DNA of 43,282 nt from a virus (IMGVR_UViG_3300027985_001631:1-43282), one strand, 5' to 3'; positions 13,512-33,240 are shown, counted from the first letter of the stretch. Numbers and translations: made by a program. Notes: generated by a model not told the origin, from the sequence alone.

Positions 13512-15488
13512 TTAAAATATCAAATACTTTCCATTTTTCACAAACAACTTACTAAAGGAACACAGCTTAACAGGTACTGTAAAACTTATATCAGCCCCAT
13601 ATACTGTCCCGGCAGAGTTAACGGCATAAGACCTACCGTGATATATTCCGGGTCTTAACTTAATAACAACTGTATACGTCCCCGTCCCTGTTCCGCTTAT
13701 ATTGTAATTATCCTCCTTTGTCGGATTCGTGGTGGTAGCCCAACAAAAGCCCCTTTCTGTAACTGTTGCCCCTCCATCTCCCGTCACATTACCATGTAAA
13801 ACAATATTTGAAGGATTATCTATAACAATAGAATCAGAAATAACACTTGGTAAATCCGCTACAGGGGGAGATGAATTATACTCATAAGCTCCTAAGGACG
13901 GGGTTTCATTGTATAGGTTTCCAAGTATATCTATTGTTATCCCATCAGATACCCCACCAGCTATTGCTGGGGAATTCTCCGAGAGACTTATATCATCCGG
14001 GGCATCAACAAATAAAGGGTCTAAATTACCGGGTTCATTTGCTTGCCAACCGTATGTTGAATTTAAAGAACTCCAATTTGTAGTACGATAATTGGTACTT
14101 CCTACCTGTACCATAGTCATATAGGTATCAAGTTCGTAAAACAAATTGTAATTCATGGAAATTTCAGAAGTATTTTGACTTGCATCAATGGTTATACTCT
14201 TTGTTTTTCCCGTCACCGAATACGTCTGAGTCCCATAAAAGATATTATTTTTTATGTCAATATCAGTATTAACCCCTTCAGTGGCAATTAAAATATGATA
14301 CATATATAAACCGGTTGTATTCAGATTAAAATTATAAAAAGTATTATGGTAAACATTAACCCCATTACAACCATCTAAATTTAAAGCATAGGAGGTACAA
14401 TATTTAAATGTATTATTATAAACCTGTGCATTATCTATAGAGGAGCCTGTTTCTTGAGCTCTGAGAGAGCAAAATGCACTTTGGTCCCATCCATCTGAAT
14501 CCGCATCACGTGTCGGGCTATCATAAAATTGATTACCCCTGATAATAATATTCTGGAAATGGTTATTATTCCGGGAACCGTCCATTGCAATTCCGATACC
14601 ACTCCCGTGATATCCGTCATGAAAAGTACTGCCCTCAATGGTTATTCCCGAGAATGTTAGGCCATCTGCATCATAAACATGAAATGATAACTGTCGGCGA
14701 CCACCATTATGTATAAGGCAGTTCTGAACTAGGTATTCATTTCTGCAAACCGCCAAATTATATCCTGTTGCCTGATCACGGGAACCTAAATAGCTTAATT
14801 CACACCCTATTAATGAGAATCCCGACAAAGAGGCTGCCGGGTCATTATCATAAATATTAATATTTTTTGCATGACGGACATCAATATTTTCTATAGCTAT
14901 ATATTGACGATCAGGCAAATAAATACCATAATTCCTTTGTGGAACCTCTATTTTTGAATATCTAGTTCCCGGGTTAGTGGGTGAGTATATATATATGTAA
15001 TCAGATAACCAAGTCCACTGATATTCAGCTGTAAGTAACCCAGTATTTGCTACATGTGTGGGCCACGTTATATCTCCCTCAGAACTATAATAAAATATCT
15101 CAGAGTAATATGTACTAGATATCCAAGGATTCACCGTAAATGTTGTTGTAGACTTCCAAATATTCCCTCCCTGATCTTCCCATCCACTTGATATATTACT
15201 GCCCAATATTAACGGTTTCTCACCCTCTCCATAACAAGAAATCACAATATAACTTCCTTCTGAACCAGAAGAGGGAATTGTTAATTGTTCTCTCCATACC
15301 CCACCTCTCTGTAAAAAAATAGTATCTCCACCTGAGAAAGTGGAATTATTCACCTTTGATAAAGTTTGCCAGGCTGTTTCTGCACTAGTCCCAAGTGCTT
15401 CATCATCACCTGTATTGCTCACATAAAAATTCGTTGCAAATACAGGTAGTGAGATAAGAGCTATAATAAAACAAAATATCTTTTTCAT
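13512..15488 (-). CDS. Exported right-handed beta-helix protein with Ig/FN3-like C terminus
   Basis: A 658-aa protein with a Sec signal peptide (MKKIFCFIIALISLPVFA). It continues NFYVSNTGDDEALGTSAETAWQTL, the usual opening of Bacteroidota polysaccharide-related beta-helices, and then about 350 residues of short beta coils rich in Asn (NVYHNTFYNFN; VYNNTFKYC). Residues 545-640 form an Ig/FN3-like domain (VTERGFCWATTTNPT; YHGRSYAVNSAG) frequent in Bacteroidota surface proteins. It could be a tailspike-like depolymerase or adhesin. The signal peptide is odd for a virion part. It overlaps the upstream gene by ATGA. Confidence 0.8.
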   Translation of the reverse strand: MKKIFCFIIALISLPVFATNFYVSNTGDDEALGTSAETAWQTLSKVNNSTFSGGDTIFLQRGGVWREQLTIPSSGSEGSYIVISCYGEGEKPLILGSNISSGWEDQGGNIWKSTTTFTVNPWISSTYYSEIFYYSSEGDITWPTHVANTGLLTAEYQWTWLSDYIYIYSPTNPGTRYSKIEVPQRNYGIYLPDRQYIAIENIDVRHAKNINIYDNDPAASLSGFSLIGCELSYLGSRDQATGYNLAVCRNEYLVQNCLIHNGGRRQLSFHVYDADGLTFSGITIEGSTFHDGYHGSGIGIAMDGSRNNNHFQNIIIRGNQFYDSPTRDADSDGWDQSAFCSLRAQETGSSIDNAQVYNNTFKYCTSYALNLDGCNGVNVYHNTFYNFNLNTTGLYMYHILIATEGVNTDIDIKNNIFYGTQTYSVTGKTKSITIDASQNTSEISMNYNLFYELDTYMTMVQVGSTNYRTTNWSSLNSTYGWQANEPGNLDPLFVDAPDDISLSENSPAIAGGVSDGITIDILGNLYNETPSLGAYEYNSSPPVADLPSVISDSIVIDNPSNIVLHGNVTGDGGATVTERGFCWATTTNPTKEDNYNISGTGTGTYTVVIKLRPGIYHGRSYAVNSAGTVYGADISFTVPVKLCSFSKLFVKNGKYLIF

Positions 15489-16342
15489 CCTTCTACCCCC
15501 TTTCCATTACCATCCATATATGTTTCAACAGCTGCATTCTCTGCCGCAACTTCAGCATCTGTTAGGCCAGAACATATTGATGTGTATGATAACTGGTTAT
15601 TACTTTTTGTTGAACTGGTGGTTGTCCTACCAAGTAAGATAATATTAGCGTTTAAAAGTGTACTACTTGTTTTTGAGAACTCTGCCAAAGAAGTTCCTTG
15701 ACTATAAAACTCCACAGCCGTTGAACTTGTACGGCTAACAGTAATTAAGCCTAAAGATGAACTTACGGCCGTATTATTGCTTGTGCCGGCATTAAAGTAA
15801 GAAACCATTGTATTTGATGTAGACCAAGGTATTATTTCCATATATGCTCCACCGGAATAAATCCCGCAAACTTGCCTATCCTCCGACAAATCCTCCCTGA
15901 AATACATTGATATGGCTGCGCTATTTTGTGTATAATTCCCAGTTACAGAATAGGGATTAAATGCAATAATAGTACCTGATGCACCCCCATCAACTCCCTC
16001 TAATGATGTATGTGTTACAGACCCTGATATTGTTGCATTAAGTGTTCCCGGATTTTTCCAGTTTATAAGGGCCTCCCCGTTATCATTCGTCTCTACGGCA
16101 AATACATAAATAGCATCTGCCTTGGCCCAAATACCGGCAGCAATAAGATTTAGCACCAAGGTATTCTGTCGAGTAGCAACACTAGCAGTTGGTTTTGTTG
16201 TCATTGCATTATATACCGCTTGGTATTCGGTACAAAATCCCGTCTCTCCCAGCTTAGATGATGAAATTACCCCGGGGAGTATTTGCCCGTTAATTCCTGT
16301 GTAAAGAAAAACGGACAGTAATATAATTAATGCCCTTTTCAT
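15485..16342 (-). CDS. Exported fibre-like protein (285 aa)
   Basis: From the internal ATG the protein starts MKRALIILLSVFLYTGINGQ, a clear Sec signal peptide with cleavage near GQ. The body is Ser/Thr/Asn-rich and beta-predicted (SVTHTSLEGVDGGASGTIIAFNPYS; TSNTMVSYFNAGTSNNTAVSSS), and ends LTDAEVAAENAAVETYMDGNGKG. This resembles phage appendage or lectin-like proteins but no family was recognised. ATGATGA at the upstream junction gives two adjacent Met candidates, and the longer frame from 16369 lacks a signal at its N terminus. It is the middle of three exported fibre-like genes. Confidence 0.7.
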   Translation of the reverse strand: MKRALIILLSVFLYTGINGQILPGVISSSKLGETGFCTEYQAVYNAMTTKPTASVATRQNTLVLNLIAAGIWAKADAIYVFAVETNDNGEALINWKNPGTLNATISGSVTHTSLEGVDGGASGTIIAFNPYSVTGNYTQNSAAISMYFREDLSEDRQVCGIYSGGAYMEIIPWSTSNTMVSYFNAGTSNNTAVSSSLGLITVSRTSSTAVEFYSQGTSLAEFSKTSSTLLNANIILLGRTTTSSTKSNNQLSYTSICSGLTDAEVAAENAAVETYMDGNGKGVEG

Positions 16343-16854
16343 CATTCTGTCCTTCCTGTTACATACCAAACGTCCCCCGAATGTTTAACTATTTCGGCCC
16401 ATCCATATTGAGCTGATATACTTAAATCTCCATTAAGAGTTACACCGGAGCCAGCCACAATAGTTGTTTGTCCAGCACCTCCCTGTATTATATGCAAAAT
16501 TGTTCCATCAGGAAAAGACACCTCGGACTCAGGTGGAACAGTAAAGGTATTTGCACTACCGTTTGTCATTACTATAATCTTACCATCATCTGACAAAACA
16601 GCTGTGTAGGTTGTGCCGGTCTGGTCATTATATTCATAATGCTTCGGAGCCACATAGTCATAAATATAAAGAGTATCAGCAAGACGCTCTTCAAGATTAC
16701 CCGTAACATCCTTAAGGCTACTTATCTCAGGACCAGTTACAGTCACGATAGTACCTTCTGAGTTTCTTACTTTTAGCCCTTTTGGAGTCCATGCCTGACC
16801 AAAAGATGTAACTGATATTAAAATCAGCACCAATAAAATTGTTAGTTTTTTCAT
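16342..16854 (-). CDS. Exported tail-fibre-like protein (170 aa)
   Basis: The internal ATG gives MKKLTILLVLILISVTSFGQ, a Sec signal peptide. The mature part starts AWTPKGLKVRNSEGTIV and ends with a repeat-like beta module (AVLSDDGKIIVMTNGSANTFTVP, FPDGTILHIIQGGAGQTTIV, GVTLNGDLSISAQYGW), a pattern seen in tail fibre and spike tips of many phages. The longer frame from 16887 has no signal at its start. The gene begins right after the 48-aa gene and ends in an ATGATGA junction with the next exported protein. Confidence 0.72.
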   Translation of the reverse strand: MKKLTILLVLILISVTSFGQAWTPKGLKVRNSEGTIVTVTGPEISSLKDVTGNLEERLADTLYIYDYVAPKHYEYNDQTGTTYTAVLSDDGKIIVMTNGSANTFTVPPESEVSFPDGTILHIIQGGAGQTTIVAGSGVTLNGDLSISAQYGWAEIVKHSGDVWYVTGRTE

Positions 16855-16859
16855 ATTAT

Positions 16860-17006
16860 TTAATTTATACTGTAAACACATTCCCAATCTACACCCTCCT
16901 CACCGTCGAATCCGGTTTCTGTGAGTGCCAGGTCATAAACCATACTTCCGTTACGGACTCCGCACCTCCCTACGGTAATTCCGTCTGTAAATATTCTATA
17001 CTGCAT
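16860..17006 (-). CDS. Short paralogue of the 77-aa protein (48 aa)
   Basis: This small ORF begins at a TGATG overlap with the 77-aa gene and encodes MQYRIFTDGITVGRCGVRNG and then DLALTETGFDGEEGVDWECV. The upstream 77-aa protein ends with almost the same block (YTDGVNTVRQGVRDGAFVQD; IALTETGFSGEEGIDWENV). About 45 residues align with conserved ALTETGFxGEEGxDWExV, so the pair arose by tandem duplication. The conservation and the tight overlap argue that it is real. Location between connector and fibre genes suggests a small structural or assembly protein. Confidence 0.72.
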   Translation of the reverse strand: MQYRIFTDGITVGRCGVRNGSMVYDLALTETGFDGEEGVDWECVYSIN

Positions 17007-19837: not shown

Positions 19838-19850
19838 AATTAAAAGGATA

Positions 19851-19877
19851 AAAGAGGGTAAGTAATTTACCCTCTTT
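19851..19877 (-). terminator. Intrinsic terminator between tail-tube candidate and 175-aa gene
   Basis: Perfect 11-bp arms (AAAGAGGGTAA and TTACCCTCTTT) enclose a 5-base loop. On the minus strand the second arm runs into TTTATCCTTTTAATT, giving a U-rich tail; the opposite strand also has a run of T, so it could end transcription in both directions. The next ATG lies only 14 bases past the stem. No promoter fits between, so read-through must express the portal-side genes, which suggests the hairpin sets the ratio of capsid to portal. Confidence 0.75.
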
Positions 19878-19880
19878 TTT

Positions 19881-20480
19881 TTATATCAATGCTGCTATTG
19901 CTGCCCGTGTAGCGGTAAGGCTCCCACCCACAAAGAGGGCCAACGGTGGTTTACTTTCCTTGTAGACATCATTACATCCTGCAAGTAAATTCCATCCACC
20001 GGCAAGCTCCTCATCTGCTGCCGTCCTCACACACTCCTTTATTTCAAGTCCGTAATCCCATCCAAGGACCTCATAAACGGTTGTTCCTGCCGGGGAGGCA
20101 TCAGAATTGTTGTATACATTTTCCTGTATAACCACAAATCTGCTCCCTATTGCATTCTTAATCCACAACTTTACTTCAGGAGTATTGTCGAAGATTCTGA
20201 AACGGAAATTTTGGTCCCATGTGTCATAATACTTCCCTTTTGACAGGGATGTATCATGTTCATTTGAATAATTATGGCCCTCTATCTTGAATGCGGTGAG
20301 TTCGGGTGAAGCTGACTTAAGTACGAGCTGTGTCAATAGCAGTGGATTATTAGGATCGAATGTGCAATTATCTTTATCAATATCATCAATATTAATAAGA
20401 TATGCAACGTCCTTTATCCCTGCCACCATCTTAGAGCAGTTATAAAGTATGCTATCAGTTATTTTATCACAAGTTGCCAT
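19881..20480 (-). CDS. Major tail tube protein candidate
   Basis: A 199-aa beta-rich protein lying just after the capsid gene and before a strong terminator, consistent with a highly expressed structural protein. The sequence contains VAYLINIDDIDKDNC, TAFKIEGHNYSNEHDTS, and a long mixed segment (YDTWDQNFRFRIFD; VYEVLGWDYGLEIKECVR) with an Ala-rich C terminus (SLTATRAAIAALI). Tail tube proteins of Bacteroidota siphophages often look like this and follow capsid genes, but I did not match a family. A capsid-decoration role is the alternative. Confidence 0.55.
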   Translation of the reverse strand: MATCDKITDSILYNCSKMVAGIKDVAYLINIDDIDKDNCTFDPNNPLLLTQLVLKSASPELTAFKIEGHNYSNEHDTSLSKGKYYDTWDQNFRFRIFDNTPEVKLWIKNAIGSRFVVIQENVYNNSDASPAGTTVYEVLGWDYGLEIKECVRTAADEELAGGWNLLAGCNDVYKESKPPLALFVGGSLTATRAAIAALI

Positions 20481-20481
20481 A

Positions 20482-21552
20482 CTATATACCTACTTCCACA
20501 AGTTCGTCATTAAGTACCTTAGTGTCAAATGCGTCACTTGCCTCAATCCTGTTATAACGACTTCTTTTGTCGTATGAAGAATCAAGAGTGTCGAACAGGT
20601 TTGTACCTTCCATACCAACAGGCATATTGTCTGCGGTAGTATAGAGAATCCGGTGAGGGTTATCAAGCTTTGTTCCATTATTGAAATAAGCTTGTATGTA
20701 CTGGTCCCACAGAGGAATAGATAGCATTGGTATTCCATCCCATGAACCGAGTTCATAACCATTGGTAAGAAGCTCAATTTTGAAAGCCTGTCCTGTTGAC
20801 TGTACTGCCCGGTATGCTTTCTGGAATACTGAGCGAGTTACGAGGATAATTCTGTTAGTCATAGCTGCAAGTATCGGACTTGCACCATCAACTACAGCAT
20901 TCAGGGCGGCAAGAGCATCAGCAGCTGTGAAAGCACTGAACTGTAAAGCACGAGTTGCCTGAGCATTTGCGCTTATAGTAATCTTCCTGTCAGTATCTGC
21001 TGCATATATAACAGCAAGCTGCTTCCAAAGACCGGTAATTACGTTGAAGTAACTTACATCAATACCGTCAGTAATAACACCAGCAGGTGAATCACTTACG
21101 TTTGCAGCATCAGTGTCACCGAACCATATATGCCTGAATATCATTTTCGGTATATCCTTCTGAAGCATATCCAAAAGGAATGCGAAATATTCAGTATTGG
21201 TAAGGTCTGAAACCTCAACACCGAGTTTTCTTGCTATTTTGAGCATTGAACTTTCTATATCAGTGTAACACTGATCAAGAATAAGTTCTATGCGTTTTGG
21301 ACTCCATAGCTTTTTTGAGGCATTAAGGGTAAGCGTATCAGCTACGGGGTCGCAACCCTGTGCTGCCTTACCAAAGAGTCCGAGAGTACCGGGAATGATA
21401 CCAATTTCCTTATCATTTTTTATCCCGGTAACGAAGGGGTGTATTCTGGTAATATCGGGAGCCTCTAAGACTGCCTTAACTACCAATTCATTCAACTGTC
21501 TGAGCTGGTCAGCAGAGAATGTGAGTGCGGCTAAGTTAAGTATTCCTGCCAT
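20482..21552 (-). CDS. Major capsid protein
   Basis: A 356-aa protein following the protease-scaffold gene, as in HK97-like phages. The N terminus (LAALTFSADQLRQLNELVVKAVLEAP) could be the region removed or rearranged in maturation. The body has long helices (ILDQCYTDIESSMLKIARKLG), a beta-rich P-like domain (VITDGIDVSYFNVI), and a C-terminal part (ILVTRSVFQKAYRAVQS; LGSWDGIPMLSIPLWDQYIQAYF; HRILYTTADNMPVGME) that matches the usual end of Bacteroidota capsid proteins. HK97 fold is inferred from order and pattern. Confidence 0.85.
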   Translation of the reverse strand: MAGILNLAALTFSADQLRQLNELVVKAVLEAPDITRIHPFVTGIKNDKEIGIIPGTLGLFGKAAQGCDPVADTLTLNASKKLWSPKRIELILDQCYTDIESSMLKIARKLGVEVSDLTNTEYFAFLLDMLQKDIPKMIFRHIWFGDTDAANVSDSPAGVITDGIDVSYFNVITGLWKQLAVIYAADTDRKITISANAQATRALQFSAFTAADALAALNAVVDGASPILAAMTNRIILVTRSVFQKAYRAVQSTGQAFKIELLTNGYELGSWDGIPMLSIPLWDQYIQAYFNNGTKLDNPHRILYTTADNMPVGMEGTNLFDTLDSSYDKRSRYNRIEASDAFDTKVLNDELVEVGI

Positions 21553-21560
21553 GATCGTAA

Positions 21561-22679
21561 TTATTTCTTCTGTATTTCAAGAACCTCATTAACCCTGTCG
21601 AGATTAATTCCGGTATCTGCGGTTGATGAACCCTTGTTTCCACGTGGGTCAGGTTTCCACTGATTCTTAAGAGTTGAAAGCTCTTTGAAGAGATTCTGAA
21701 CTTTTGTTTTTTCAGCATCGAGTGCAGTTTTAGAAGCTTCAAGTTCAGTAACCTTTGCCTGAAGTGTATCACGTTCAGAGGTGAGCGTATTAACCTGTGC
21801 CCTCAGTTCCTCTACCGTTTTATCGGCTGGCGGAGCTGGCTTGGTTATTTCTGTAATCTTACCACCCGAAACTATGATAGTGTCACCTGACTCCATCTCA
21901 TAGGTTCCATCCGGGCTAGCAGAGTCACCAACAGCGGGTTCACCTGATTCTTTCTCAATGGTGAATTTATTTCCTGACTTATCAGTCATCTCCATATTTA
22001 GAGATTCTTCAAGTCTGGAAAACCCCAAAGCTTTGGCGACAGGACTGTTCATAAGTGCCTTAAGCTTTTCAAGCCAGGCATTTTTGTCTTTCTCTGTCAT
22101 CTTTTGAAATTTATGTGGATTTATAAATGCGTAAGCAACTACCGGTTCAACAACCTCAGTGGCGAAACCAAGCTTAAGCATATCCTCAGCTGATAACTTA
22201 GTTTCTTCCTTCATGTATTTTTCTAAAGTTGCCCTATCACCCTTTGTTTGTTCAACATAGAATTCAAGTATTTTATTTTCCTCCTGCTTTAACCCCTCTG
22301 CAATCTTTAAAAGGTCATCAGATTCATACTGATCTGCTAGGGTATAGGGAGGAATAAAAGGCATGTGTATTAACCCGTCAGCATTCTTTAACATCTTTCG
22401 GGTCGAGCCAGCAAGAAATATAACTGTACCGATTGAATAAACCTTACCCTCTCCGATAGTTATTATCTTTTTACCTGAATTCTTTAAAAGATCATGGATT
22501 GCCCACCCTTCCTGAACATCTCCACCTCTAGTATTTATCTTAACAGTTATTTCATCTTCTCCCTGATTTTCATCAAGGAAATCTGAGACTGTTTTAGCAG
22601 AAATACACTCTTCTCCACCGAATAGCATACTAAACTCATCTGTTATTCCGATGTCTCCATATATTTTTAATACTGCCAT
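21561..22679 (-). CDS. ClpP-like prohead protease fused to scaffold-like domain
   Basis: Residues 1-185 form a ClpP/S49-like serine protease: INTRGGDVQEGWAIHDLL, then GKVYSIGTVIFLAGS with the nucleophile likely Ser82, and DGLIHMPF with His105. After a linker, residues 288-338 form a coiled coil (VEELRAQVNTLTSERDTLQA; VTELEASKTALDAEKTKV), typical of a scaffold domain. The fusion lets one gene supply both protease and scaffold, cleaving the prohead interior during maturation. It lies directly upstream of the capsid gene. A TAACTTTA promoter-like site lies in the 60-base gap before its ATG. Confidence 0.88.
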   Translation of the reverse strand: MAVLKIYGDIGITDEFSMLFGGEECISAKTVSDFLDENQGEDEITVKINTRGGDVQEGWAIHDLLKNSGKKIITIGEGKVYSIGTVIFLAGSTRKMLKNADGLIHMPFIPPYTLADQYESDDLLKIAEGLKQEENKILEFYVEQTKGDRATLEKYMKEETKLSAEDMLKLGFATEVVEPVVAYAFINPHKFQKMTEKDKNAWLEKLKALMNSPVAKALGFSRLEESLNMEMTDKSGNKFTIEKESGEPAVGDSASPDGTYEMESGDTIIVSGGKITEITKPAPPADKTVEELRAQVNTLTSERDTLQAKVTELEASKTALDAEKTKVQNLFKELSTLKNQWKPDPRGNKGSSTADTGINLDRVNEVLEIQKK

Positions 22680-22739: not shown

Positions 22740-23252
22740 TTACAGTTCAGATAACGCACCATTTCCATGTACGATCAATAAAATTCCCTTCCCATTTAAT
22801 GCCCTCTTAAGATTCAAGAAGTGCAGCTTTATTCTTTCTATATTCTTTGATAAATGAGGGTGGGTAATTAGATCAACACCAAATAAATGTATCTCTGAGG
22901 GAGAATGAAATTTATAAGCTACAGCACAGGCCACAAATGGGGAACAAAGAGACTTGGGAAGATCAGGGACATCTAAGTCACAGATATAACTCGGGTAATA
23001 TGATTGTAGAGTTATTTTTATAAAATCTCCTCTCTCAGACCATGAATTTAAATGGCTATAGAAGGATATAGGTTCACTGGTTTGAATCGCTCTCAATCGC
23101 TCTGGCGAAAAGCGAGTCGGCTCATCAACACAAACCACATAATCTGTTTTTACCCTGCTCCAAATATCGTTGCATCCAATTGATAAGTCGAACCTATCTT
23201 TATCATATAATGACAAGCTCTCTCCGAGTCCTAATATTGCTACTTTTGCCAT
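22740..23252 (-). CDS. Rossmann-like protein of the glycosylation cluster
   Basis: A 170-aa protein with a nucleotide-binding start (VAILGLGESLSLYDKD), then IGCNDIWSRVKTDYVVCVDEPTRFS, and a later strand-helix pair EIHLFGVDLITHPHLSKNIERI. The GLGESL...GCNDIW...VCVDEP pattern resembles DUF115/MptE-like and sialyltransferase-like Rossmann proteins often found in surface-glycan clusters. It overlaps the upstream glycosyltransferase gene by 13 bases and is last in the cluster, just before the gap that precedes the capsid genes. Exact reaction unknown. Confidence 0.6.
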   Translation of the reverse strand: MAKVAILGLGESLSLYDKDRFDLSIGCNDIWSRVKTDYVVCVDEPTRFSPERLRAIQTSEPISFYSHLNSWSERGDFIKITLQSYYPSYICDLDVPDLPKSLCSPFVACAVAYKFHSPSEIHLFGVDLITHPHLSKNIERIKLHFLNLKRALNGKGILLIVHGNGALSEL

Positions 23253-23932
23253 GCTCCCGGAATTTCTTTAAGTCCCTTAACTTTATTATTCATTCTGGTA
23301 GCACCAAAATCATGTTGAATATATTCAGGTTTTTGGGCTACCCAATTTATACCCTTTCCAGAACTATGTAATGTAAGGCCAGGGTAATGTTTTAATATCT
23401 TTTCAGATAATCCTAAATCATGAATACTAATCATTGCCTTATAAGAAGGTGCACCATGATGACAGTATGGCGCAAATCTCACATACTGCTTTATATTAAG
23501 TAAATGAAAATATGGATGTAGATAGGAGATGGGCCCATAATTCAAATGATGCTCATAGGTCCCATAATCAAACCCATCACGCCCTATTTGATGAATATAC
23601 CCAACACCATACGTATTCTCCTCCATTAACGCCAGCATTCCTGATACCGGGTTTTTAAGCATGATAATATCAGAATCAAATATTAATGCGTACTGAGTCG
23701 TGCATCTCTGTATTCCGTAATTCATTCCATTACCGTGCCCTATATTATACCCTAACTGATATACAGTATTATACTCCATCGCTGATAAGCTCTTTACATA
23801 TTCATAACACCTTGTCCCCTTTTCCGAACCATCAACAATAATTAAAGGGAGATTTGGCAAAAACTCCCTTACCGAATTATAACACCGTTGAAATATATCA
23901 GCTGTATTATATGTAACAACTATCCCTGTCAT
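23240..23932 (-). CDS. GT2-like glycosyltransferase (230 aa)
   Basis: A GT-A fold enzyme: TGIVVTYNTADIFQRCYNSV (donor-binding start), LIIVDGSEKG, GHGNGMNYGIQRC, then YALIFDSDIIMLKNP with the metal-binding DSD in place of DxD. The C-terminal half (YGVGYIHQIGRDGFDYG; PYFHLLNIKQYVRFAPYCHHGAPS) probably binds the acceptor. It would transfer a sugar from a nucleotide-sugar donor in the cytoplasm. It overlaps the upstream GT by ATGA and the Rossmann-like gene by 13 bases, so it is part of one coupled cluster. Acceptor not known. Confidence 0.8.
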   Translation of the reverse strand: MTGIVVTYNTADIFQRCYNSVREFLPNLPLIIVDGSEKGTRCYEYVKSLSAMEYNTVYQLGYNIGHGNGMNYGIQRCTTQYALIFDSDIIMLKNPVSGMLALMEENTYGVGYIHQIGRDGFDYGTYEHHLNYGPISYLHPYFHLLNIKQYVRFAPYCHHGAPSYKAMISIHDLGLSEKILKHYPGLTLHSSGKGINWVAQKPEYIQHDFGATRMNNKVKGLKEIPGAWQK

Positions 23933-24633
23933 AAGTATAAATTTGCATCTGTTCCTATAAGCTTTTTAAGATAATCCCCATTTGGGTCGTGAGCCATATT
24001 CATAGCCATAGAATGTCCTGCTCCAATACCCGGCCTTCCCGGTTGTCCTTTTATACCTATAGATAGGTTATTTGCCCGGAACAGATTTTTGCTTTTTGCG
24101 TGTTTAAATATGGAGATGTCGATATACTTTTCCATTCTGAAGGAATAAAATAAGGGTATAGCATCCCAAGTAAAACAGGTCTGAAACAAACTCGACCACT
24201 CTTCATTTTTATTTTCCACCCACCTGCGAGTAAATACGTTATAGTAAATAGTACACATTTCACCGGCAACCTGATACCCTTTTATTCTTTTTACCATCTC
24301 GGAAAGATAGTCAGCAGAGTAATAATCATCATCTTCGATGATGAATATAGCCTCTATTTCTTCCTTTGATGAAATATCTATAAGTGTATCAAGAGCAGCG
24401 ATTAAATTTCTGCCCTGTGTATTCATTCCCGGTTGCCATGAGGGCACTGGGTAAATCTTCTCTATTTTCCATCCGGGACGAAAAGAGTCATTTATAAAAT
24501 TAGTTGTTACGGGACTACAGTCATCTACAATAATCCATAAGACCTCACCAAGATAGGTCTGTTTTTTCATAAGCTTTGAACAGATACTAATCTGTTTGGG
24601 CCTTGCTCCTGTGGGTGTAATAAGTGCTATCAT
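23929..24633 (-). CDS. GT-A family glycosyltransferase (234 aa)
   Basis: The start MIALITPTGARPKQISICSKLM and VLWIIVDDCSPVTTNFI fit a GT-A nucleotide-sugar site; EAIFIIEDDDYYSADYLSEM holds the DxD metal motif. The C-terminal half includes WDAIPLFYSFRMEKYIDISIFKHAK and ends with Gly-rich KGQPGRPGIGAGHSM. It is coupled by ATGA to the epimerase upstream and the GT downstream. The acceptor is unknown; its place in the late operon suggests it modifies virion proteins or the host envelope late in infection. Confidence 0.78.
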   Translation of the reverse strand: MIALITPTGARPKQISICSKLMKKQTYLGEVLWIIVDDCSPVTTNFINDSFRPGWKIEKIYPVPSWQPGMNTQGRNLIAALDTLIDISSKEEIEAIFIIEDDDYYSADYLSEMVKRIKGYQVAGEMCTIYYNVFTRRWVENKNEEWSSLFQTCFTWDAIPLFYSFRMEKYIDISIFKHAKSKNLFRANNLSIGIKGQPGRPGIGAGHSMAMNMAHDPNGDYLKKLIGTDANLYL

Positions 24634-25541
24634 TTTTTATAAGTTTGTTTTAACCAGTTAATAGTTATTGGTATACCCTCCTCTAGTAATACCCTTGGGT
24701 TATGACCCAAATCATTTACAGCCTTTGATATATCAGGCAGTTTATTTACGGTATTATGTTTATCCTCCTGAAGATATTCAACCATTGATTTACTTTCAGG
24801 AATATATGAACGAATTATGTCGTTAAGTTCCCGCACACTTCTGAACTCAGTACCTCCGATATTATAAACTTCTCCGGGTTTAAAATTTTCACATACATTT
24901 GCCAGGGTAGGAATAAAATCATCAATAAACATAAACACTCTGTGATATCCCTCATAAACCTGATAAGGAAGATTAAACAAAGCGCGGTAACAGAATAAAC
25001 ACACAACACTCCTGTAATGATGATAGAACTCCCCGGGGCCGTAAGCATTGAAGAACCTGCAACGAACTGTATCAGTACCGTATCTCGCCTCAAAATTCTT
25101 TATCTGTAATTCATTGACGTACTTAGATATGGCATAATCATTCGGCAAACTTACTGCAAATTCATCTATGAGCTTTTCAGTAAGGGGTACAATAAATCCA
25201 TCCCCATATACTTCTGATGAACTGGCAAATATCAATCTGAATCCATACCTTACCTGTAATTCAAGAATGTTACGAGTTCCTATAGTATTCGTCATCCACA
25301 AGTTTTCGAAATACTCTTCCCCGTTTAATCTTCCGAACTCAGCTGCAAGGTGATATACATAATCAAATCCCTTTCTCATCACTCTTTCAAGTTGCCTTAT
25401 CTGAGTAACATCGGCCCGGATGTAATTATCTATCTGCTGATGCTGTAGGTCACATATCCAAACCTCATGACCCCTTGATCTTAATTCTTTAGCAAGGGGC
25501 CTCCCGAGAGTTCCCATGCCACCCGTTATTAATATCCTCAT
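24630..25541 (-). CDS. NAD-dependent sugar epimerase/dehydratase (SDR)
   Basis: An extended-SDR sugar enzyme: RILITGGMGTLGRPLAKEL (GxxGxxG NAD site at 7-13), VYHLAAEFGR, IFASSSEVYGDG (Ser near 108), and the catalytic pair in DYAISKYVNE (Tyr136, Lys140). A segment near residue 165 (FFNAYGPGEFYHHYRSVV) and VYEGYHRVFMFIDDFI resemble UDP-glucose 4-epimerase and GDP-mannose pathway enzymes. It probably makes the nucleotide sugar used by the neighbouring transferases. ATGA overlaps tie it to the genes on both sides. The exact product cannot be set from sequence alone. Confidence 0.85.
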   Translation of the reverse strand: MRILITGGMGTLGRPLAKELRSRGHEVWICDLQHQQIDNYIRADVTQIRQLERVMRKGFDYVYHLAAEFGRLNGEEYFENLWMTNTIGTRNILELQVRYGFRLIFASSSEVYGDGFIVPLTEKLIDEFAVSLPNDYAISKYVNELQIKNFEARYGTDTVRCRFFNAYGPGEFYHHYRSVVCLFCYRALFNLPYQVYEGYHRVFMFIDDFIPTLANVCENFKPGEVYNIGGTEFRSVRELNDIIRSYIPESKSMVEYLQEDKHNTVNKLPDISKAVNDLGHNPRVLLEEGIPITINWLKQTYKK

Positions 25542-26284
25542 AAATCTGTTGTTATTATGTGTAACGCCCTAAATTGATTACTTCTCTTAAGGTCCTCGTA
25601 AAGCTCTTTATTTTGCTTTATTAACTCCTGTTTATTTGGATTGTCCTGACCTGAATAATGCCACTGATGAATTACATGAGGTTCATCTATAATACTAACT
25701 TTAAGCCCAAGACATTTAGCCCGGTGCAAAAAATAATTATCTGCATAACCCCAGCCATACATGAATCTTTCGTCATAGCCATTCATGTGAATAATATTTT
25801 TTGCTGTTATGGCTGCACAGAATTCATACGCTACCGGTCTATATACTGAATGATTATACCATGCGTCATCCCCATCTTTATTAGCCCCTCTGTTATTATA
25901 TACCAAAACTCCCTTATCCATTGTTTCTTTACTTACAGAGTAACAGGCGAATGTAAAATACTGAGAATCATTAATCTCCGAAGCATACTTTATAATATCA
26001 CCCTTATGTATACATTCAGGATTCTGCAATATAATCACATCGGCTCCTTTTCTTAATGCACTGTGCAAACCCAAATTATAGACCGGGTCGGGATTACTCC
26101 ACTCTTTCTGCGTCAACCTTATCATTGTTACAGGATAATCAACATCAGGTATAACTACAAGGTAAGGGCTATTATCATCAATAACAATAACCTCAAAATT
26201 TTTATGCTCGCTCTTTATACTTAAGAGAGTTCTTGTCAACTGTTCCTGCCTATCATAATAAGGCATTACTACAACTACTTTCAT
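25538..26284 (-). CDS. GT2 family glycosyltransferase (248 aa)
   Basis: A canonical GT2: MKVVVVMPYYDRQEQLTRTLLSI, FEVIVIDDNSP, a nucleotide-binding region to residue 100 (GADVIILQNPECIHKG holds the DxD-equivalent NPE), and a galactosyltransferase-like C-terminal part (MNGYDERFMYGWGYADNYFLHRAKCLG) with an ED-like acceptor pair. It probably adds a sugar to a glycan or protein acceptor in the cytoplasm. ATGA overlaps join it to the preceding GT and the following epimerase. Confidence 0.83.
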   Translation of the reverse strand: MKVVVVMPYYDRQEQLTRTLLSIKSEHKNFEVIVIDDNSPYLVVIPDVDYPVTMIRLTQKEWSNPDPVYNLGLHSALRKGADVIILQNPECIHKGDIIKYASEINDSQYFTFACYSVSKETMDKGVLVYNNRGANKDGDDAWYNHSVYRPVAYEFCAAITAKNIIHMNGYDERFMYGWGYADNYFLHRAKCLGLKVSIIDEPHVIHQWHYSGQDNPNKQELIKQNKELYEDLKRSNQFRALHIITTDL

Positions 26285-26916
26285 GATAAGATTCTATTTT
26301 TACCACTAGAAGATTCATTTGCAGTCAGAAAATAATTTCTTTCATCTTCCGGTAGTCGGTTAAAGTCTGTATAATACCAAGGAATATGTTTTGCAGTATA
26401 AGGTCTATTGGCCCTTATTCCCGATAATGTGTACTTATTTACTCTATAAAGGGCAAACGTTGTATCTATTGGAGCATCAAAATACTTATTATCAAGAGGA
26501 TTTTGCCAATACTTAGCCTCTATATTTCGGATAAATGCACCCTCTTTAGAGTCTGGTAGGTCCTCAATCTCTAATGAAAGCCCACATTTATCATACATAG
26601 GGTACTTATCAAGCCCCTTATTCAGAACTTTAATAAAATCCTTAGGTACAAATGATAGATCAAGGTCTGAATCAGTAACTATGTATCTATCCTTTATACC
26701 AAGTTTATTTACAATATCCTGAGTCCACACTACGGTGTGACCATAATTCTGATACATCTCTACAACCTGAAAGGGACAGGTAGCATAATAATCCCTCAGG
26801 GGTTGATATGTAGAGGCGTTATCAATAAAAATAGGTTCACAACCATGTTTTGATAACCATTCTGCCATCCTCCTCGGTAGAGTGAGCCTGTTAAAATTAA
26901 TAATAAGAACTTTCAT
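26281..26916 (-). CDS. GT-A glycosyltransferase-like protein (211 aa)
   Basis: The start KVLIINFNRLTLPRRMAEWL, then PIFIDNASTYQPLRDYY and a helix-turn, lead to RYIVTDSDLDLSFVPKDFI with DSD/DxD metal ligands. The C-terminal half (KYFDAPIDTTFALYRVNKY; HIPWYYTDFNRLPEDERNYF) is the acceptor region. The pattern is of small GT-A enzymes in glycan clusters. It is the first transferase of the cluster, coupled by ATGA to the HTH-like 76-aa gene upstream, which follows the tape measure. Confidence 0.75.
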   Translation of the reverse strand: MKVLIINFNRLTLPRRMAEWLSKHGCEPIFIDNASTYQPLRDYYATCPFQVVEMYQNYGHTVVWTQDIVNKLGIKDRYIVTDSDLDLSFVPKDFIKVLNKGLDKYPMYDKCGLSLEIEDLPDSKEGAFIRNIEAKYWQNPLDNKYFDAPIDTTFALYRVNKYTLSGIRANRPYTAKHIPWYYTDFNRLPEDERNYFLTANESSSGKNRILS

Positions 26917-27143
26917 ACTTCTTTTTCCATTTTACTGATTATCTTATATATTGAACTTACTGATATTTTCATCTTCTCAGCTACAAAATAAACCGCATCT
27001 GTTGTATTCATTTTCATTTTCTTAGCTGCATCATATCTCCCATACACCTCCCAATGCCGTAAAATAGAGCAGGGTAAAATACCAATTTTACATTCGTACT
27101 TTACCCGTTTCATATTAGTATTAAGGTAGTTATAAAGTATCAT
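26913..27143 (-). CDS. Small helix-turn-helix-like protein (76 aa)
   Basis: The C-terminal part, TTDAVYFVAEKMKISVSSIYKIISKMEKEV, has the helix-turn-helix pattern of small DNA-binding proteins and replication or terminase-associated helices. The N terminus (MILYNYLNTNMKRVKYECKIG) is basic. The gene overlaps the tape measure stop by ATGA and the first glycosyltransferase by ATGA. It might regulate late genes, or be a structural helper; the evidence does not decide. Confidence 0.55.
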   Translation of the reverse strand: MILYNYLNTNMKRVKYECKIGILPCSILRHWEVYGRYDAAKKMKMNTTDAVYFVAEKMKISVSSIYKIISKMEKEV

Positions 27144-29440
27144 ACCGTAGCTCTTACACTTACTTTATCTGTTTCTTTAACCTTTGCATTAATATCCTCC
27201 ACAGTAACAATTGGCCTGGGAAGATTTGAGGCTGCATTTGCAAAATCCTCAGGAGTAAACTGATTTACAGCTGTAGACTCATTTGCCGTTACAGGGGTAG
27301 TATTCTTATTCAGTACGGTTGTACCTGCTGCCTGTGCTGTTATACGTGTCTGTGCTGCCCCGGAAGATATAGAGGTTGACGTGCTCCCTGATGTACTCCC
27401 ACTGCTTGAACTACCCTTAACTTTAACCTTCATAATATTTCTTACTGTCATTAATCCGGTCCCGATAATAGCAACCATAGCAGCAACCCGGGCTATTGTA
27501 GAGGGAATTGTTGGGTCAGCAAGGGCCTGAGATGCAGCCACCCATGTATTTATTGATGCTGCTGCAATGGCAAATATCTTCCCGGCAGCTGTTTCCGCAC
27601 CAATGTTTTCACTTATAGCTGATAGAGCCTCGGACACTGCTTGCTTTTCATCCCACATTTGATCTATCCGGGCCTGTGAAAGTTGTTTTTTTGCCTGATT
27701 ATATTGCTCCTCTGCTAATAATTGTTGATTATATGACATCTCTTTCCAATCATTACTAGCTTTTAGAGCCGTGAACTCTCTATCTAGAATTTGGTTTAAT
27801 AATTCAAGATCACCCTCATATTTTAACTGCTCATATTCACTACGAGCTTGGTCATCAGCTTCCTTCCAAGACTTAACTTCATCCGAAAATTTCTTATCGG
27901 CATCAAGCTGTTTTTGCTTATAATCCTTGTCTATTTTAGCAATGGCCTCTTCATACTGAACTTTTAAAATCTGTCTCTGTGTTTCATTTAACTCTGTATC
28001 TTTTGCTAGTTCCTCATACTGATACCGAAGGGCCTCTTTAATCTTCTCAGTATCTTCGCCGGCCTGTAATAACCTTAATGTTATTTCCTGCTGTAATCTT
28101 TCTTTAAGATCAGCTTTTGCCTTATCTGCAACAGTTTTTCTTTCGTTTTCTATCTCCTTATCAAACCCACTTAACTTACTTATATTCTCTTTATTTCTCT
28201 TAAAATATTCTGTTTCAGCATCCATATATGAGGCATATAACTGCTCCATCTCTTTGAACTTAGCTTCATTATTATTACGAAGAGTCCTGAGTGATTCATC
28301 TGCAACAGCCTGTTCTTCATCCGACATCTTTATAAAGTTTATAACATCCTCCCCCTGTAGTCCTGCTTTTTCAGCAAGATATGCAGCTTCAGCATTTAGC
28401 CTCTCAGATAAAAACCCTTTTTCTGTTTCTACCTCTTCCTTTCTAATATCCATTGCCTCAACAAGTGCGGCCCGTCTCTCCTTTGTTGATCTTGATCTGT
28501 CCTGTGCCGTATACTCAAGTCTCGCAACTGCATTTCGCATATCTGCTGATCTAGATATGTAATTATTCTCTGCATCAAGAATAGTATCTAGTGCATAAGT
28601 ATATTTATATGCTGCTGTCGTGGCATCCTGTATCTGCTCTTTAATCCCCGTGAATGTATCTCTTAATGCCTCACCCGCTGCCTTAAAATCACCCTTAAAA
28701 AGACTTGTAAATGCACCAATAAGGGTAAGAACTCTTTGTCTTAACACATCAGCAACGGCCTTTAGCTGTTCCCACCTTGCTGCCACTTCTGTAGCTCCTG
28801 AATCACTTGACTTAAATATCTTTATTAATCCAGTTATAGCGGCGACTATTAATGATATTACGGCAACTAATGGTATGGCCATTACTGCTTTCATAGTTGT
28901 TCCCAATCCCTTTATAGAATTTGCAGCATTCCCAACCGGTCCTGGCATCATTGAGGTTTTAGATAAAGCTGCTTCTACAGACTCAGTGTAATTACCCACA
29001 TTAAGAGTATTATTATGGGTGGCTTTTCCGAACGCATCAAGAGACTTTTTTGCATCATCGACTACCTTACTCTGTTCAATGAACTTCTGTGATAGTTTTC
29101 TTACTCCCTTTTCATCTGTTTCAAAACCATCACCCATAAGTTTTAATTGAACCTCTGCCAGCTTCCATCTCTGATAAAGTTCATCATAAGAATCCTTTGC
29201 AGCCTTATTTGCTTTGGTGGCATTTACCACGTTCTTTGTTGCATTATTATATTCCTGCTGTGCCGCCCTTAATGCACCATTACTTTTCTCCAACTCCGCA
29301 GCTGTTGCACTTCCACTCTTATGCAAATCATCATTGGCCTTCTTAAGCTCTTCCAATCTCTTTTTTGCTTCAGCAGCCCGTTCAGCATAAACATCTAGAT
29401 TATCCTCGATATTTATCAGGTATTTTTTTTCTTCATCCAT
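27140..29440 (-). CDS. Tail tape measure protein
   Basis: At 766 aa this is one of the two longest proteins. It is mostly helical with long coiled-coil stretches (AERAAEAKKRLEELKKANDD; ELEKSNGALRAAQQEYNNAT), and one hydrophobic segment near 185-209 (AVMAIPLVAVISLIVAAITGL), with a second hydrophobic region near 640-680. This is the classic layout of tape measure proteins, which set tail length and pass DNA through the host membrane. Length agrees with a medium siphophage tail. Its start is 4 bases after the tail-tip gene, and it couples to the next gene by ATGA. Confidence 0.88.
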   Translation of the reverse strand: MDEEKKYLINIEDNLDVYAERAAEAKKRLEELKKANDDLHKSGSATAAELEKSNGALRAAQQEYNNATKNVVNATKANKAAKDSYDELYQRWKLAEVQLKLMGDGFETDEKGVRKLSQKFIEQSKVVDDAKKSLDAFGKATHNNTLNVGNYTESVEAALSKTSMMPGPVGNAANSIKGLGTTMKAVMAIPLVAVISLIVAAITGLIKIFKSSDSGATEVAARWEQLKAVADVLRQRVLTLIGAFTSLFKGDFKAAGEALRDTFTGIKEQIQDATTAAYKYTYALDTILDAENNYISRSADMRNAVARLEYTAQDRSRSTKERRAALVEAMDIRKEEVETEKGFLSERLNAEAAYLAEKAGLQGEDVINFIKMSDEEQAVADESLRTLRNNNEAKFKEMEQLYASYMDAETEYFKRNKENISKLSGFDKEIENERKTVADKAKADLKERLQQEITLRLLQAGEDTEKIKEALRYQYEELAKDTELNETQRQILKVQYEEAIAKIDKDYKQKQLDADKKFSDEVKSWKEADDQARSEYEQLKYEGDLELLNQILDREFTALKASNDWKEMSYNQQLLAEEQYNQAKKQLSQARIDQMWDEKQAVSEALSAISENIGAETAAGKIFAIAAASINTWVAASQALADPTIPSTIARVAAMVAIIGTGLMTVRNIMKVKVKGSSSSGSTSGSTSTSISSGAAQTRITAQAAGTTVLNKNTTPVTANESTAVNQFTPEDFANAASNLPRPIVTVEDINAKVKETDKVSVRATV

Positions 29441-29443
29441 GAC

Positions 29444-31807
29444 CTATAACTTTATAAGTTCTACAGTACAGAGCTTCCCGACTACATAATTACTTATCTT
29501 ATTAACATAAAAATAAGCTTTATATTGTTTTAGATATACCGGTATATAATGCTTAAATCCCGCTACCTCATAGGCCGGGAGATTAAATTTTGCTTTCCTT
29601 AAGTTGGTTTGATGAAGCATTCTAGATAATCCTACATAATTACTTATCAGGGAAGGAAAGGAAACTTCTAGGGTTGTAGATACTTTACAGTCTACTGCAT
29701 CATAAGAGGTCCCACCACCCACTAACGTCCTGAATCCAAAAGTTTTACCAGGTTCCTCCTTTATATACACAATTCTTGCATCTATCTTCGTATTTGACTC
29801 GTATGCTGCGTCCTTTGAACTGTACTTATTGAATCCTATTCTATTAATAAGAACATCGGTTAAAACGATTATTTCATCAGAATAACTGACGGGCAATGTA
29901 AAGGCATCCCGGGAAGCCTCTAAGGTTTCATCAAGAACTCCCAAGACTCCCATTCCATTATTCTCCAATACATCCTGACTTGCTTTATATTTCATGTAAT
30001 TCTTTTGGGCATAATTTCCAAACTTGAATTCTACATCATCATCAGCCTCAGATAAATATTCACTCCAATCTCTTGCAACAGGGATATTATCATAAAGCAG
30101 CTGGTAATTCCAGAAGAGTATTTTTCTTGTCCTTGCATCTGCCTCAGGAATAAGCGCAAACATATTGCAGATAAGCTTTATGAATTCCGTCTGACTGATA
30201 TCGGGAAGATTATTAGCTATTGACGTACCAATAGAAGAATTAAAAGTACTCCCATAGGTTACCTTGGGTGCATCTATCTTAGTTATCTGAATGGCCCAAT
30301 TTACCCCTGTCCATTTACGATTTAAAATACTTCCGGTATGAGTCAGTTGCATCATAAACCTGAATCTTTGCCCAAAAACTAAATCCTCCTCAACAGTGAA
30401 TCTTTTCAAAACCACCTGCTCACCCGTAGGGTTCTGCATAACCACATAGTCATTAACCGTAATAAAGTCAATATAAGTACTCCCTGAAAGTATTTGCATA
30501 ACTATACCGGTACACTCGTATCCTTCCTGTAGTTTTTCCAATACCTGAATATCAATAGTAAATTTACCAGAAACCATTGCTAACAACTCATTAAGTTGCC
30601 AGGCAATATCATCCTTCCCAACTATTATATTGGTCCATAAAAACTGCTCAGTAAAAACAGAATCATAACTCGTATAAACTCTCCAAGCATTATCAGTACC
30701 AGAAAACAACCACCTATCCAAAGCCGATATTTCCCGGTTCGCTATAGGCATATATAAGGATAGGAATTTTTCATTTGTAAGAATATCCCCTTCAGCTGTG
30801 TAACCTGAATTACTTAGTATCTCATCAAATATTGCCTTTAACCTTACATAAGGCCATACCCAACCACCGTATACCTCTGCCCTATCCCCATCATCAGTAA
30901 GCGGTATAATTCCAGAATCATCACTAGGTTCTACCCCGGGATATATATAATCGAGATCAGCCGTATTACTTGCTGCCTGAACATCAGCAGTCCAAGTATG
31001 ATCACAGGTAGATAGAGTAAGGTCATTGATTTTAAGGTCCTCGATTAAAGAGAAAAAATCTTTATTTCCAGAATAGGCACTAACAGTATAATACTGCTCA
31101 TCACTTTTCTCTACAACTACCCTGCCATTGGTAATCAACTCTATACCATCCTGTATAAATCTACAAGGCTGCTTTGTATATGGGAAACTAGTATTTGCAC
31201 CGGCCTCACCCGTAAGCTGAAAAAGAGCCTTCATGACCCTCGACTTTCTTACTCTGAATGTAGCTGTGAAATCTGTTTTTCTATCCTTCATTTCACCTAT
31301 ATCACTCACCTGTTTATTAACTGCAATAATCTCATTATCATCTACATCACAGAGAGTATCGGAGATATAAAAGTTCATTCTTTTCTGATAAACAGCTGGG
31401 GTGTTAGGCATCTCTTTCCTGGTAATCTCAAATTCCAAACTATATCGGGTTGCTCCCTCTACCATTATAGGGATTGAATCCCTTGTTATGTCTACCTCAT
31501 ACCACACTCCACCGTCATACTGCTCCACCTTTTCAGCTATAAGAAGCCCGGCAAATCCATCTATATCACCCTCACTAATATTTTCAAGAGCTACCATATA
31601 ACTGTATTCAGCGGTAATTTTCGTGGCCCTCTCAATTCTTGAAATAACGGAATAAACCTGAGTTATTTGTTTATCCATAGAACTCGTACTCATTACTACC
31701 TCCCTCTTATTTTGAAAGTAATAATAGTGCCAGCCATTATAATACCATCTCAAATATATTCCATTTGAGTGACCCCTTACAATCGGTATTCTTATGAGCT
31801 TTATCAT
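29444..31807 (-). CDS. Tail tip / baseplate protein (787 aa)
   Basis: The largest protein of the window. Residues 1-125 form a module shared with the preceding FISUMP protein: IPIVRGHSNGIYLRWYYNGWHYYYF and later VWYEVDITRDSIPIMVEGATRYSLEFEITRK. The rest is beta-rich (FIQDGIELITNGRVVVEKSD; SDNAWRVYTS-type segments), consistent with a distal tail or baseplate hub protein. ATGA coupling to the FISUMP gene and its position before the tape measure support a tail-tip role. It may anchor the FISUMP protein through the shared module. Confidence 0.72.
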   Translation of the reverse strand: MIKLIRIPIVRGHSNGIYLRWYYNGWHYYYFQNKREVVMSTSSMDKQITQVYSVISRIERATKITAEYSYMVALENISEGDIDGFAGLLIAEKVEQYDGGVWYEVDITRDSIPIMVEGATRYSLEFEITRKEMPNTPAVYQKRMNFYISDTLCDVDDNEIIAVNKQVSDIGEMKDRKTDFTATFRVRKSRVMKALFQLTGEAGANTSFPYTKQPCRFIQDGIELITNGRVVVEKSDEQYYTVSAYSGNKDFFSLIEDLKINDLTLSTCDHTWTADVQAASNTADLDYIYPGVEPSDDSGIIPLTDDGDRAEVYGGWVWPYVRLKAIFDEILSNSGYTAEGDILTNEKFLSLYMPIANREISALDRWLFSGTDNAWRVYTSYDSVFTEQFLWTNIIVGKDDIAWQLNELLAMVSGKFTIDIQVLEKLQEGYECTGIVMQILSGSTYIDFITVNDYVVMQNPTGEQVVLKRFTVEEDLVFGQRFRFMMQLTHTGSILNRKWTGVNWAIQITKIDAPKVTYGSTFNSSIGTSIANNLPDISQTEFIKLICNMFALIPEADARTRKILFWNYQLLYDNIPVARDWSEYLSEADDDVEFKFGNYAQKNYMKYKASQDVLENNGMGVLGVLDETLEASRDAFTLPVSYSDEIIVLTDVLINRIGFNKYSSKDAAYESNTKIDARIVYIKEEPGKTFGFRTLVGGGTSYDAVDCKVSTTLEVSFPSLISNYVGLSRMLHQTNLRKAKFNLPAYEVAGFKHYIPVYLKQYKAYFYVNKISNYVVGKLCTVELIKL

Positions 31808-33240
31808 ATATCCTTTATTAAGCGTATTGAGAAATATTCTTCATCAGGAAGAGCCGATAAAAATATATCCGGTACAGCAAAGTTTGTATAGTACTCCAAA
31901 GACAATCCCTGTACTGGGTATAACTCCTCAGTATCTGTTGATAGAAAATGTCCGAATCTCCCAAAATTAATAGGGCCACCATAATACTTACCTGCTGGTA
32001 ATCCAAAGAAACCATACAAATCAATGGAATATATAGAGGGGTCATAATATTCCCAATGTGAGTACCCCGCCTCCTTTAAATTAATTCCACCGGTATCAGG
32101 ACCGCCAGCGTAATTTATAAGAGTTAAAAACTCCTCCATACTTGGGACATGATACCCCGGGTGAAGCGTTTCAATTTCAGAAATCTGCGATTGCTTATAT
32201 AGCCTACCATATAAAGGCACATTATCTACGTCATTATTGGGTAACATAGCCCCTGAGATACTATCAGAAACATTGTACTTCATCCATGTTTGTGTTCCAA
32301 TAATAACATCGTAGTTAATATCAACCTTCTTTAATCTTATAGGATAAAGCCCGGCCATAGGCATAGGAACTATTGATACCTCACCTGTATCGTAGGAAAA
32401 TTTAACAGCCTTAAATCTCCAACTATCATATACATCAGAGGTAAGAAAGTAGGCTGATTGATTCATCTCTCCATAATCATAACCATAAAATACCTTCCTG
32501 GCATAACCACTCCCCCTTACATTGAAGTCCATATAACTTGCCGCATCGGTATTTGGAGAATCCCAATAGGTTAATCCAAGCTCCTTTAATTTACCTGCCA
32601 GACTCAAACCACCGATAAGTTCAATAAGGGTTTCCCATTCAGCTACACTTGGAACCTTCCATCCATCAGGACAAAAACCGGGAGTCATTACCATTGCATA
32701 AGTATAGAGGCCCCCATAAAGACTCCTGTAATCTTCATTATCATCATAGACCTTTGAACTGGGATATGCACTTGCCCAATTTGCACATCCCCAAGATTGG
32801 TTCCCAATCTCTATACTACAGAAAGAAGGAGCAGGAGCAACAGGAATTTCAATAATCGGACTTGACCCCGTAGAGCTTATTGCCCGGCTTCCAATTATGC
32901 CTGTTATCTCCATAGAATAAGCATCAATGTCATTTCTTAATACTACAACTTCACCTGATTCAATACGGAATTCCCCCCAACCACTATCAGTATATATCTT
33001 GATCTGTGTAGAATTTAAAAGGCTCCTGATTGCCTCTATCTGACTACCGGAAACCTGACCTGTTGATAACTTCCTGTAACGTGTCCCATAAGTACGGTAC
33101 TTTTCCCCTTCTGTTTTATAGTTAATAACCCCGGGGTAGAATAGCCAATAATGCCATCCATTATACCACCACCTGATATATACCCCTGTATTTCTCCTTA
33201 TTATAGGAATCCGCTGTTGTCTGTATATACGGCTCATCAC
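31804..33240 (-). CDS. Tail protein with two FISUMP domains, probable receptor binding
   Basis: Residues 11-118 are the module shared with the 787-aa protein (IPIIRRNTGVYIRWWYNGWHYWLF; SGWGEFRIES). The rest has two FISUMP (Fib_succ_major) domains: one at 143-305 with IEIGNQSWGCANW, GLYTYA, GFCPDGWKVPSVAEWETLIEL, and one from 318 to the end with VIIGTQTWMKYNV, YGRLYKQSQI, LHPGYHVPSMEEFLTLINYAGG. FISUMP domains are common in Bacteroidota surface proteins and in phage receptor-binding proteins, with a C-type-lectin-like fold suggested. ATGA joins it to the next gene. Receptor binding is inference. Confidence 0.75.
   Translation of the reverse strand: MMSRIYRQQRIPIIRRNTGVYIRWWYNGWHYWLFYPGVINYKTEGEKYRTYGTRYRKLSTGQVSGSQIEAIRSLLNSTQIKIYTDSGWGEFRIESGEVVVLRNDIDAYSMEITGIIGSRAISSTGSSPIIEIPVAPAPSFCSIEIGNQSWGCANWASAYPSSKVYDDNEDYRSLYGGLYTYAMVMTPGFCPDGWKVPSVAEWETLIELIGGLSLAGKLKELGLTYWDSPNTDAASYMDFNVRGSGYARKVFYGYDYGEMNQSAYFLTSDVYDSWRFKAVKFSYDTGEVSIVPMPMAGLYPIRLKKVDINYDVIIGTQTWMKYNVSDSISGAMLPNNDVDNVPLYGRLYKQSQISEIETLHPGYHVPSMEEFLTLINYAGGPDTGGINLKEAGYSHWEYYDPSIYSIDLYGFFGLPAGKYYGGPINFGRFGHFLSTDTEELYPVQGLSLEYYTNFAVPDIFLSALPDEEYFSIRLIKDI

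Follow-up and report, generated by a model that had tools for sequence, protein, structure and literature searches.

The 43,282-base virus record IMGVR_UViG_3300027985_001631, which we analysed over its whole length (the window), belongs to an uncultured tailed phage that carries, between its tape measure and prohead protease genes, a six-gene block (22740-26916, minus strand). We infer that this block acts on the phage's own particles: it is probably a virion-glycosylation cassette made late, together with the tail and head proteins. Its presence exceeds chance, since dozens of contigs carry this block at the corresponding location, and its most informative feature, missed by the first-pass annotation, is that its end genes are fixed and its middle is exchangeable.

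The minus strand carries the terminase, tail, head and other genes of the window. On this strand, the tape measure gene (27140-29440, a 766-aa ORF whose homologues precede hth76 in relatives) is followed by hth76 (26913-27143), encoding a 76-aa HTH-like protein kept in relatives as the conserved 5' edge of the slot, and by the cassette genes GTa (26281-26916), GTb (25538-26284), SDR (24630-25541), GTc (23929-24633), GTd (23240-23932) and ROS (22740-23252). The genes for the prohead (head maturation) protease (21561-22679; phrog_94, E 3e-39) and the major capsid protein (20482-21552; 32% tblastn identity to a BS-TP3 protein annotated as XkdG-like/major capsid) come next. The first-pass annotation had placed the six ORFs and both flanking genes correctly, and had left hth76, located between the tape measure gene and the cassette, out of its gene list. 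Its description of ATGA junctions nearly throughout, in a chain reaching the tail genes, also holds: four-base ATGA overlaps join tape measure/hth76, hth76/GTa, GTa/GTb, GTb/SDR, SDR/GTc and GTc/GTd, the exception being GTd and ROS, which overlap by 13 bases; ROS and the protease gene are separated by a 60-base gap. Internal promoters were considered and rejected, as a Bacteroidota-type promoter pattern had two matches in the window, none of them in the cassette and not above chance, and sigma-70-like matches were close to background level. No Rfam families or tRNAs were found in the window. A strong terminator-like hairpin of 12-13 pairs (19850-19878), which has a T-rich tail in either orientation, lies just past the capsid gene and a gene encoding a 199-aa protein (19881-20480).

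Several other minus-strand genes of the window deserve mention. Downstream of the head genes, three genes in a row (13512-16887) encode proteins with signal-peptide-like starts, one of them a predicted right-handed beta-helix (PF13229), and such exported-looking proteins are odd for a phage structural region. Among the tail genes, a protein with a Fib_succ_major (FISUMP) domain (31804-33240; PF09603, E 7e-27) is a possible adhesin. Beside the terminase genes, a predicted TET-associated-type DNA glycosyltransferase (37569-39237; PF20691, E 4e-33), whose gene overlaps a ParB-like gene and is otherwise present in only one record of the lineage (that of L107), suggests DNA glycosylation separate from the cassette.

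The claim of four glycosyltransferase-like proteins stands for GTb, GTc and GTd, predicted family 2 glycosyltransferases that match Glycos_transf_2 (PF00535; E 3e-8, 1e-6 and 8e-15, respectively), GTb also having a Glyco_transf_7C segment (PF02709, E 5e-5). For GTa, which has no Pfam or PHROG match, the claim comes down to fold likeness. The GTa model (pLDDT 78) resembles nucleotide-sugar-binding folds, with CMP-KDO synthetase as its best match (E 6e-4) and weaker ones to the glycosyltransferases GtrB, SunS and TarP, and its conserved DxD-like motif, TD(P/S)DLD, is consistent with a GT-A-like or nucleotide-sugar-binding protein. The motifs EDDDYY of GTc and DSD of GTd are invariant, and the glycosyltransferases of the window give weak GtrB-like PHROG matches. 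The protein already described as an SDR sugar epimerase indeed matches the Pfam Epimerase family (PF01370, E 5e-39) and is probably an extended-SDR nucleotide-sugar epimerase/dehydratase, its nearest solved chain being 8w3u, a 'dTDP-glucose 4,6-dehydratase related protein' (E 5e-86). ROS, a small Rossmann-like protein with the motifs GLGxSL and SPFVA...FGVDL and a confident AF2 model (pLDDT 93.8), matches no recognised family profile of Pfam above the curated cut-off. Profile alignment relates it to phage proteins that hit phrog_4603 'alpha-2,3-sialyltransferase' (HHalign probability 93.7%, E 2e-7), and its model resembles those of viral proteins annotated as MptE-like/DUF115 (E 3e-6 to 3e-5). 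We rejected a plain GT42 sialyltransferase, for which the motifs are suggestive but no PDB sequence match was found, the PDB folds giving a weak thiamine pyrophosphokinase (TPK)-like match; by profile and fold likeness, ROS is kept as GT42/MptE-like only. In the alignment of relatives, some hth76 members weakly match HTH_11 or the Mor activator family, and hth76 may therefore regulate late genes.

Searches of IMG/VR recovered 52 loci with ROS as query and 80 with GTc, and a capsid-protein search served to lessen the bias of these cassette-gene queries. Gene maps of the relatives reveal a recurrent order, namely tape measure, hth76, variable genes, GTc, GTd, ROS, protease and capsid. Of the capsid-drawn contigs, 59 extend 450 bases or more upstream of the protease gene, and 52 of these contain ROS (on the opposite strand in one, L170); three of the seven lacking it are distant (capsid 34-38% identical) and the other four break off no more than 1.4 kb from the protease gene. 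Complete slots (n = 29) hold four to ten genes each and always include GTc and ROS, accompanied by GTd in 27 of them, these three genes being the conserved 3' bookends; the sample includes some related contigs, so that figures drawn from it are counts, not independent events. Relatives carrying the cluster at sites unlinked to virion genes, a possibility raised by the first-pass annotation, were looked for, and the slot proved to be fixed in this lineage; GTc-like and ROS-like genes of other lineages were likewise located among head or connector genes. ROS and GTd distances track those of the capsid (Spearman 0.65 and 0.61, similar to the portal, 0.59) and GTc distances do so less (0.35), all of these being comparisons of related sequences and not independent tests. 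GTc and ROS are restricted to phage among the genomes searched: neither was found in 148 other Bacteroidales genomes, and the sole match among genomes of this order was a MAG containing a phage contig of this lineage, a hint as to the host group. When GTa, GTc, GTd and ROS were used to query INPHARED, no match was returned.

Between these constant ends, one to seven genes separate hth76 from GTc in the 29 complete slots. Cassette genes other than GTc, GTd and ROS make up 45 families there, 18 of which are singletons, and even the commonest occur in a minority of slots (GTb in 11, SDR in 9 and GTa in 8). The cargo families include glycosyltransferases, methyltransferases, B12-radical-SAM enzymes and epimerases, and a Pfam search of 87 unassigned cargo proteins recognised glycosyltransferases (GT2, GT11 and others), B12/radical-SAM proteins, methyltransferases, some with C-methyltransferase-type domains, DegT aminotransferases, a PglD-like protein and capsular synthesis-like enzymes, as well as GIY-YIG and NUMOD3 homing-endonuclease domains. 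Some pairs of phages with capsids 81-90% identical (e.g., L107/L145 and L107/L048) have no variable gene in common; for L107 and L145, nucleotide similarity ends at the end of hth76 and resumes at the first base of GTc. L025 and L026, 96% identical over 6.6 kb, differ by a 240-aa gene adjoining hth76 that only one of them possesses. Because the middle genes differ even among such close relatives, these phages probably sugar-coat their own particles and keep changing the coat. A bolder and more tentative proposal, which we put somewhat short of even chances, is that the slot is a glycotype-switching locus where hth76 and the GTc-GTd-ROS end would serve as recombination handles and whole glycan pathways would be swapped, as in bacterial capsule types. 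If so, the virions would bear rare C-methylated, amino- or, in another lineage, sulfated sugars, and their surface variants would be under selection.

The slot and its genes can be followed beyond the lineage. In the distantly related Mucilaginibacter prophages L175 and L176, hth76 is retained and no cassette is present between it and the protease gene. Bacteroides phage BS-TP3, a cultured distant relative, fills this slot with a thioredoxin-like gene, a gene for a SusC-like TonB-dependent receptor and a SusD-like gene (L120:14682-19063, L119:5-1264), indicating that the slot can carry host-surface cargo. In other tailed-phage lineages (e.g., L088, L095, L097 and L109), the head and connector genes include a GTc homologue that adjoins GT42/MptE-like genes and, in one group, a sulfotransferase gene; L095 holds GTa, GTb, a third gene, SDR and GTc together at its head-connector site. 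The sulfotransferase-like genes directly follow GTc in the head-connector region (L097:7381-8049, L095:6262-6924 and L088:10690-11388), the assignment coming from a PF13469 profile test of the L097 protein, whose N-terminal motif the L095 and L088 proteins share, and they suggest sulfated virion glycans in that lineage.

A strongly hydrophobic 19-mer (hydropathy >1.8) occurs in only 2 of 202 cassette proteins and in none of the window cassette, and the Pfam tally of cargo proteins contains no flippase. The cassette proteins look cytosolic and are devoid of membrane segments, so their most likely site of action is the cytoplasm, where they would use nucleotide sugars as donors and modify a cytoplasmic acceptor. 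Late virion proteins would be the obvious acceptors for such glycosylation. We envisage that SDR makes or converts a nucleotide sugar and that, while a virion protein (for example, that of the capsid or the tail tube) is being made, GTa to GTd, perhaps with ROS, add sugars to it stepwise with no lipid carrier involved. GTc, GTd and ROS would provide the constant part, for example by linking the glycan to its acceptor or by adding the inner sugars, and the genes lying between hth76 and GTc would set the glycan type and be replaced by recombination in the flanking genes. The selective reason for such a scheme might be to evade antibodies, lectins or host surface recognition.

Two parts of the first-pass reading are the best supported, namely that the cassette is expressed late along with the virion genes and that the phage glycosylates its own virion; the other proposal, remodelling of host glycans, is less likely. 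In the latter case, the cassette would modify the host capsule or LPS late in infection, providing superinfection exclusion or keeping released virions off debris. The surface-polysaccharide-type enzymes of the cargo (GT11, capsular synthesis-like, DegT aminotransferase and PglD-like) and the SusC/SusD-like outer-membrane proteins encoded in the BS-TP3 slot speak for it, but membrane segments are almost absent, neither a flippase nor a membrane-anchored glycosyltransferase of the GtrABC type was recognised, and expression from a late operon would leave little time for rebuilding surface glycans, all of which makes it unlikely. Lysogenic conversion was rejected as well, being less likely because a tyrosine integrase was detected in none of 17 lineage records (the window and 16 relatives; the search covered tyrosine integrases, and the records may be incomplete), a result that also weighs against host-glycan remodelling. 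It is quite improbable, too, that the slot is a mere hotspot for accessory genes of mixed functions with no common virion target. Its strongly varying contents, the homing-endonuclease domains and the unrelated BS-TP3 cargo would fit, but a hotspot leaves unexplained the constant GTc-GTd-ROS end with its conserved catalytic-type motifs, the recognised cargo is mostly glycan-related, and similar glycosyltransferase blocks occur at other structural-gene sites in other lineages. Glycosylation of phage DNA by the cassette, which the PF20691 gene beside the ParB-like gene could evoke, is very improbable because this DNA-type enzyme is rare in the lineage (2 of 17 records, against a near-universal cassette), its TAGT domain has no match among the cassette proteins of the window, the cargo is varied with many rare-sugar enzymes, and the cassette does not adjoin replication or DNA-modification genes.

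If the block indeed glycosylates virions in this lineage of uncultured Bacteroidota phages, where the exchangeable glycan cassette is near-universal and phage-specific, decorated and antigenically variable particles would be widespread, and the cassettes would supply phage enzymes that handle rare sugars. Whether the cassette type predicts the virion glycan, and what that glycan evades or binds, become testable questions.

Virion glycosylation by phage glycosyltransferases is already known; what appears new is that a lineage of Bacteroidota phages has, within its assembly operon, a bookended, exchangeable and near-universal glycan cassette, an arrangement that we did not find in the open-licence literature searched, where nothing direct on virion glycosylation of Bacteroides phages was found either. 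Bacterial capsule and O-antigen loci combine constant flanks with exchangeable glycan genes. The window cassette shares this pattern of conserved ends and exchangeable middle but is situated in a phage virion operon, and no polymerase, flippase or ligase was recognised in it. GtrABC systems of O-antigen conversion also employ family 2 glycosyltransferases, but they have a membrane flippase and membrane-anchored glycosyltransferases, whereas neither a GtrA flippase nor a membrane glycosyltransferase was found in the cassette. A dedicated sugar pathway among tail and head genes, deemed uncommon at first, is the rule within this lineage, and comparable insertions exist in cluster O mycobacteriophages and in Pseudomonas phage PAJU2. 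In PAJU2, GT42-like (phrog_4603) and methyltransferase genes (ORF010-012) are also inside the head-tail operon, but the block is small and occupies a different slot, between head closure and tail terminator. ORF010 of this phage (L121:5998-6567), GT42-like, is an alpha-2,3-sialyltransferase in RefSeq and a structural protein for its depositors, and it may be virion-associated.

Mycobacteriophages offer further parallels, virion glycosylation having been reported in them and affecting antibody recognition. The adjacent glycosyltransferase genes gp108-gp110 of Che8 (cluster F) recall those of the window, but they lie at the right genome end, away from virion genes, whereas the cassette combines phage-encoded soluble glycosyltransferases with coupling to virion genes. 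The best comparison between both sets, GTb against gp109, reaches a non-significant 7.9 bits, and the parallel with cluster O phages, whose glycosyltransferases are related to those of Che8, is therefore one of layout. In a passage of PMC12363180 that cites Freeman 2023, Che8 gp110 and Corndog gp38 are given as essential for capsid glycosylation; likewise, a passage of PMC11600133 citing the same work states that cluster O glycosyltransferases modify the capsid and tail tube. Cluster O phages (Corndog/Wildflower) have the portal gene on the other side of their block instead of the tape measure gene, with neither SDR nor ROS, the order in Wildflower being portal, O-methyltransferase, three glycosyltransferases, capsid protease and MCP. 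Their overlapping glycosyltransferase and methyltransferase genes immediately precede those for the capsid maturation protease and MCP, as the window cassette also precedes its protease and capsid genes, and this shared position is the strongest precedent for the cassette.
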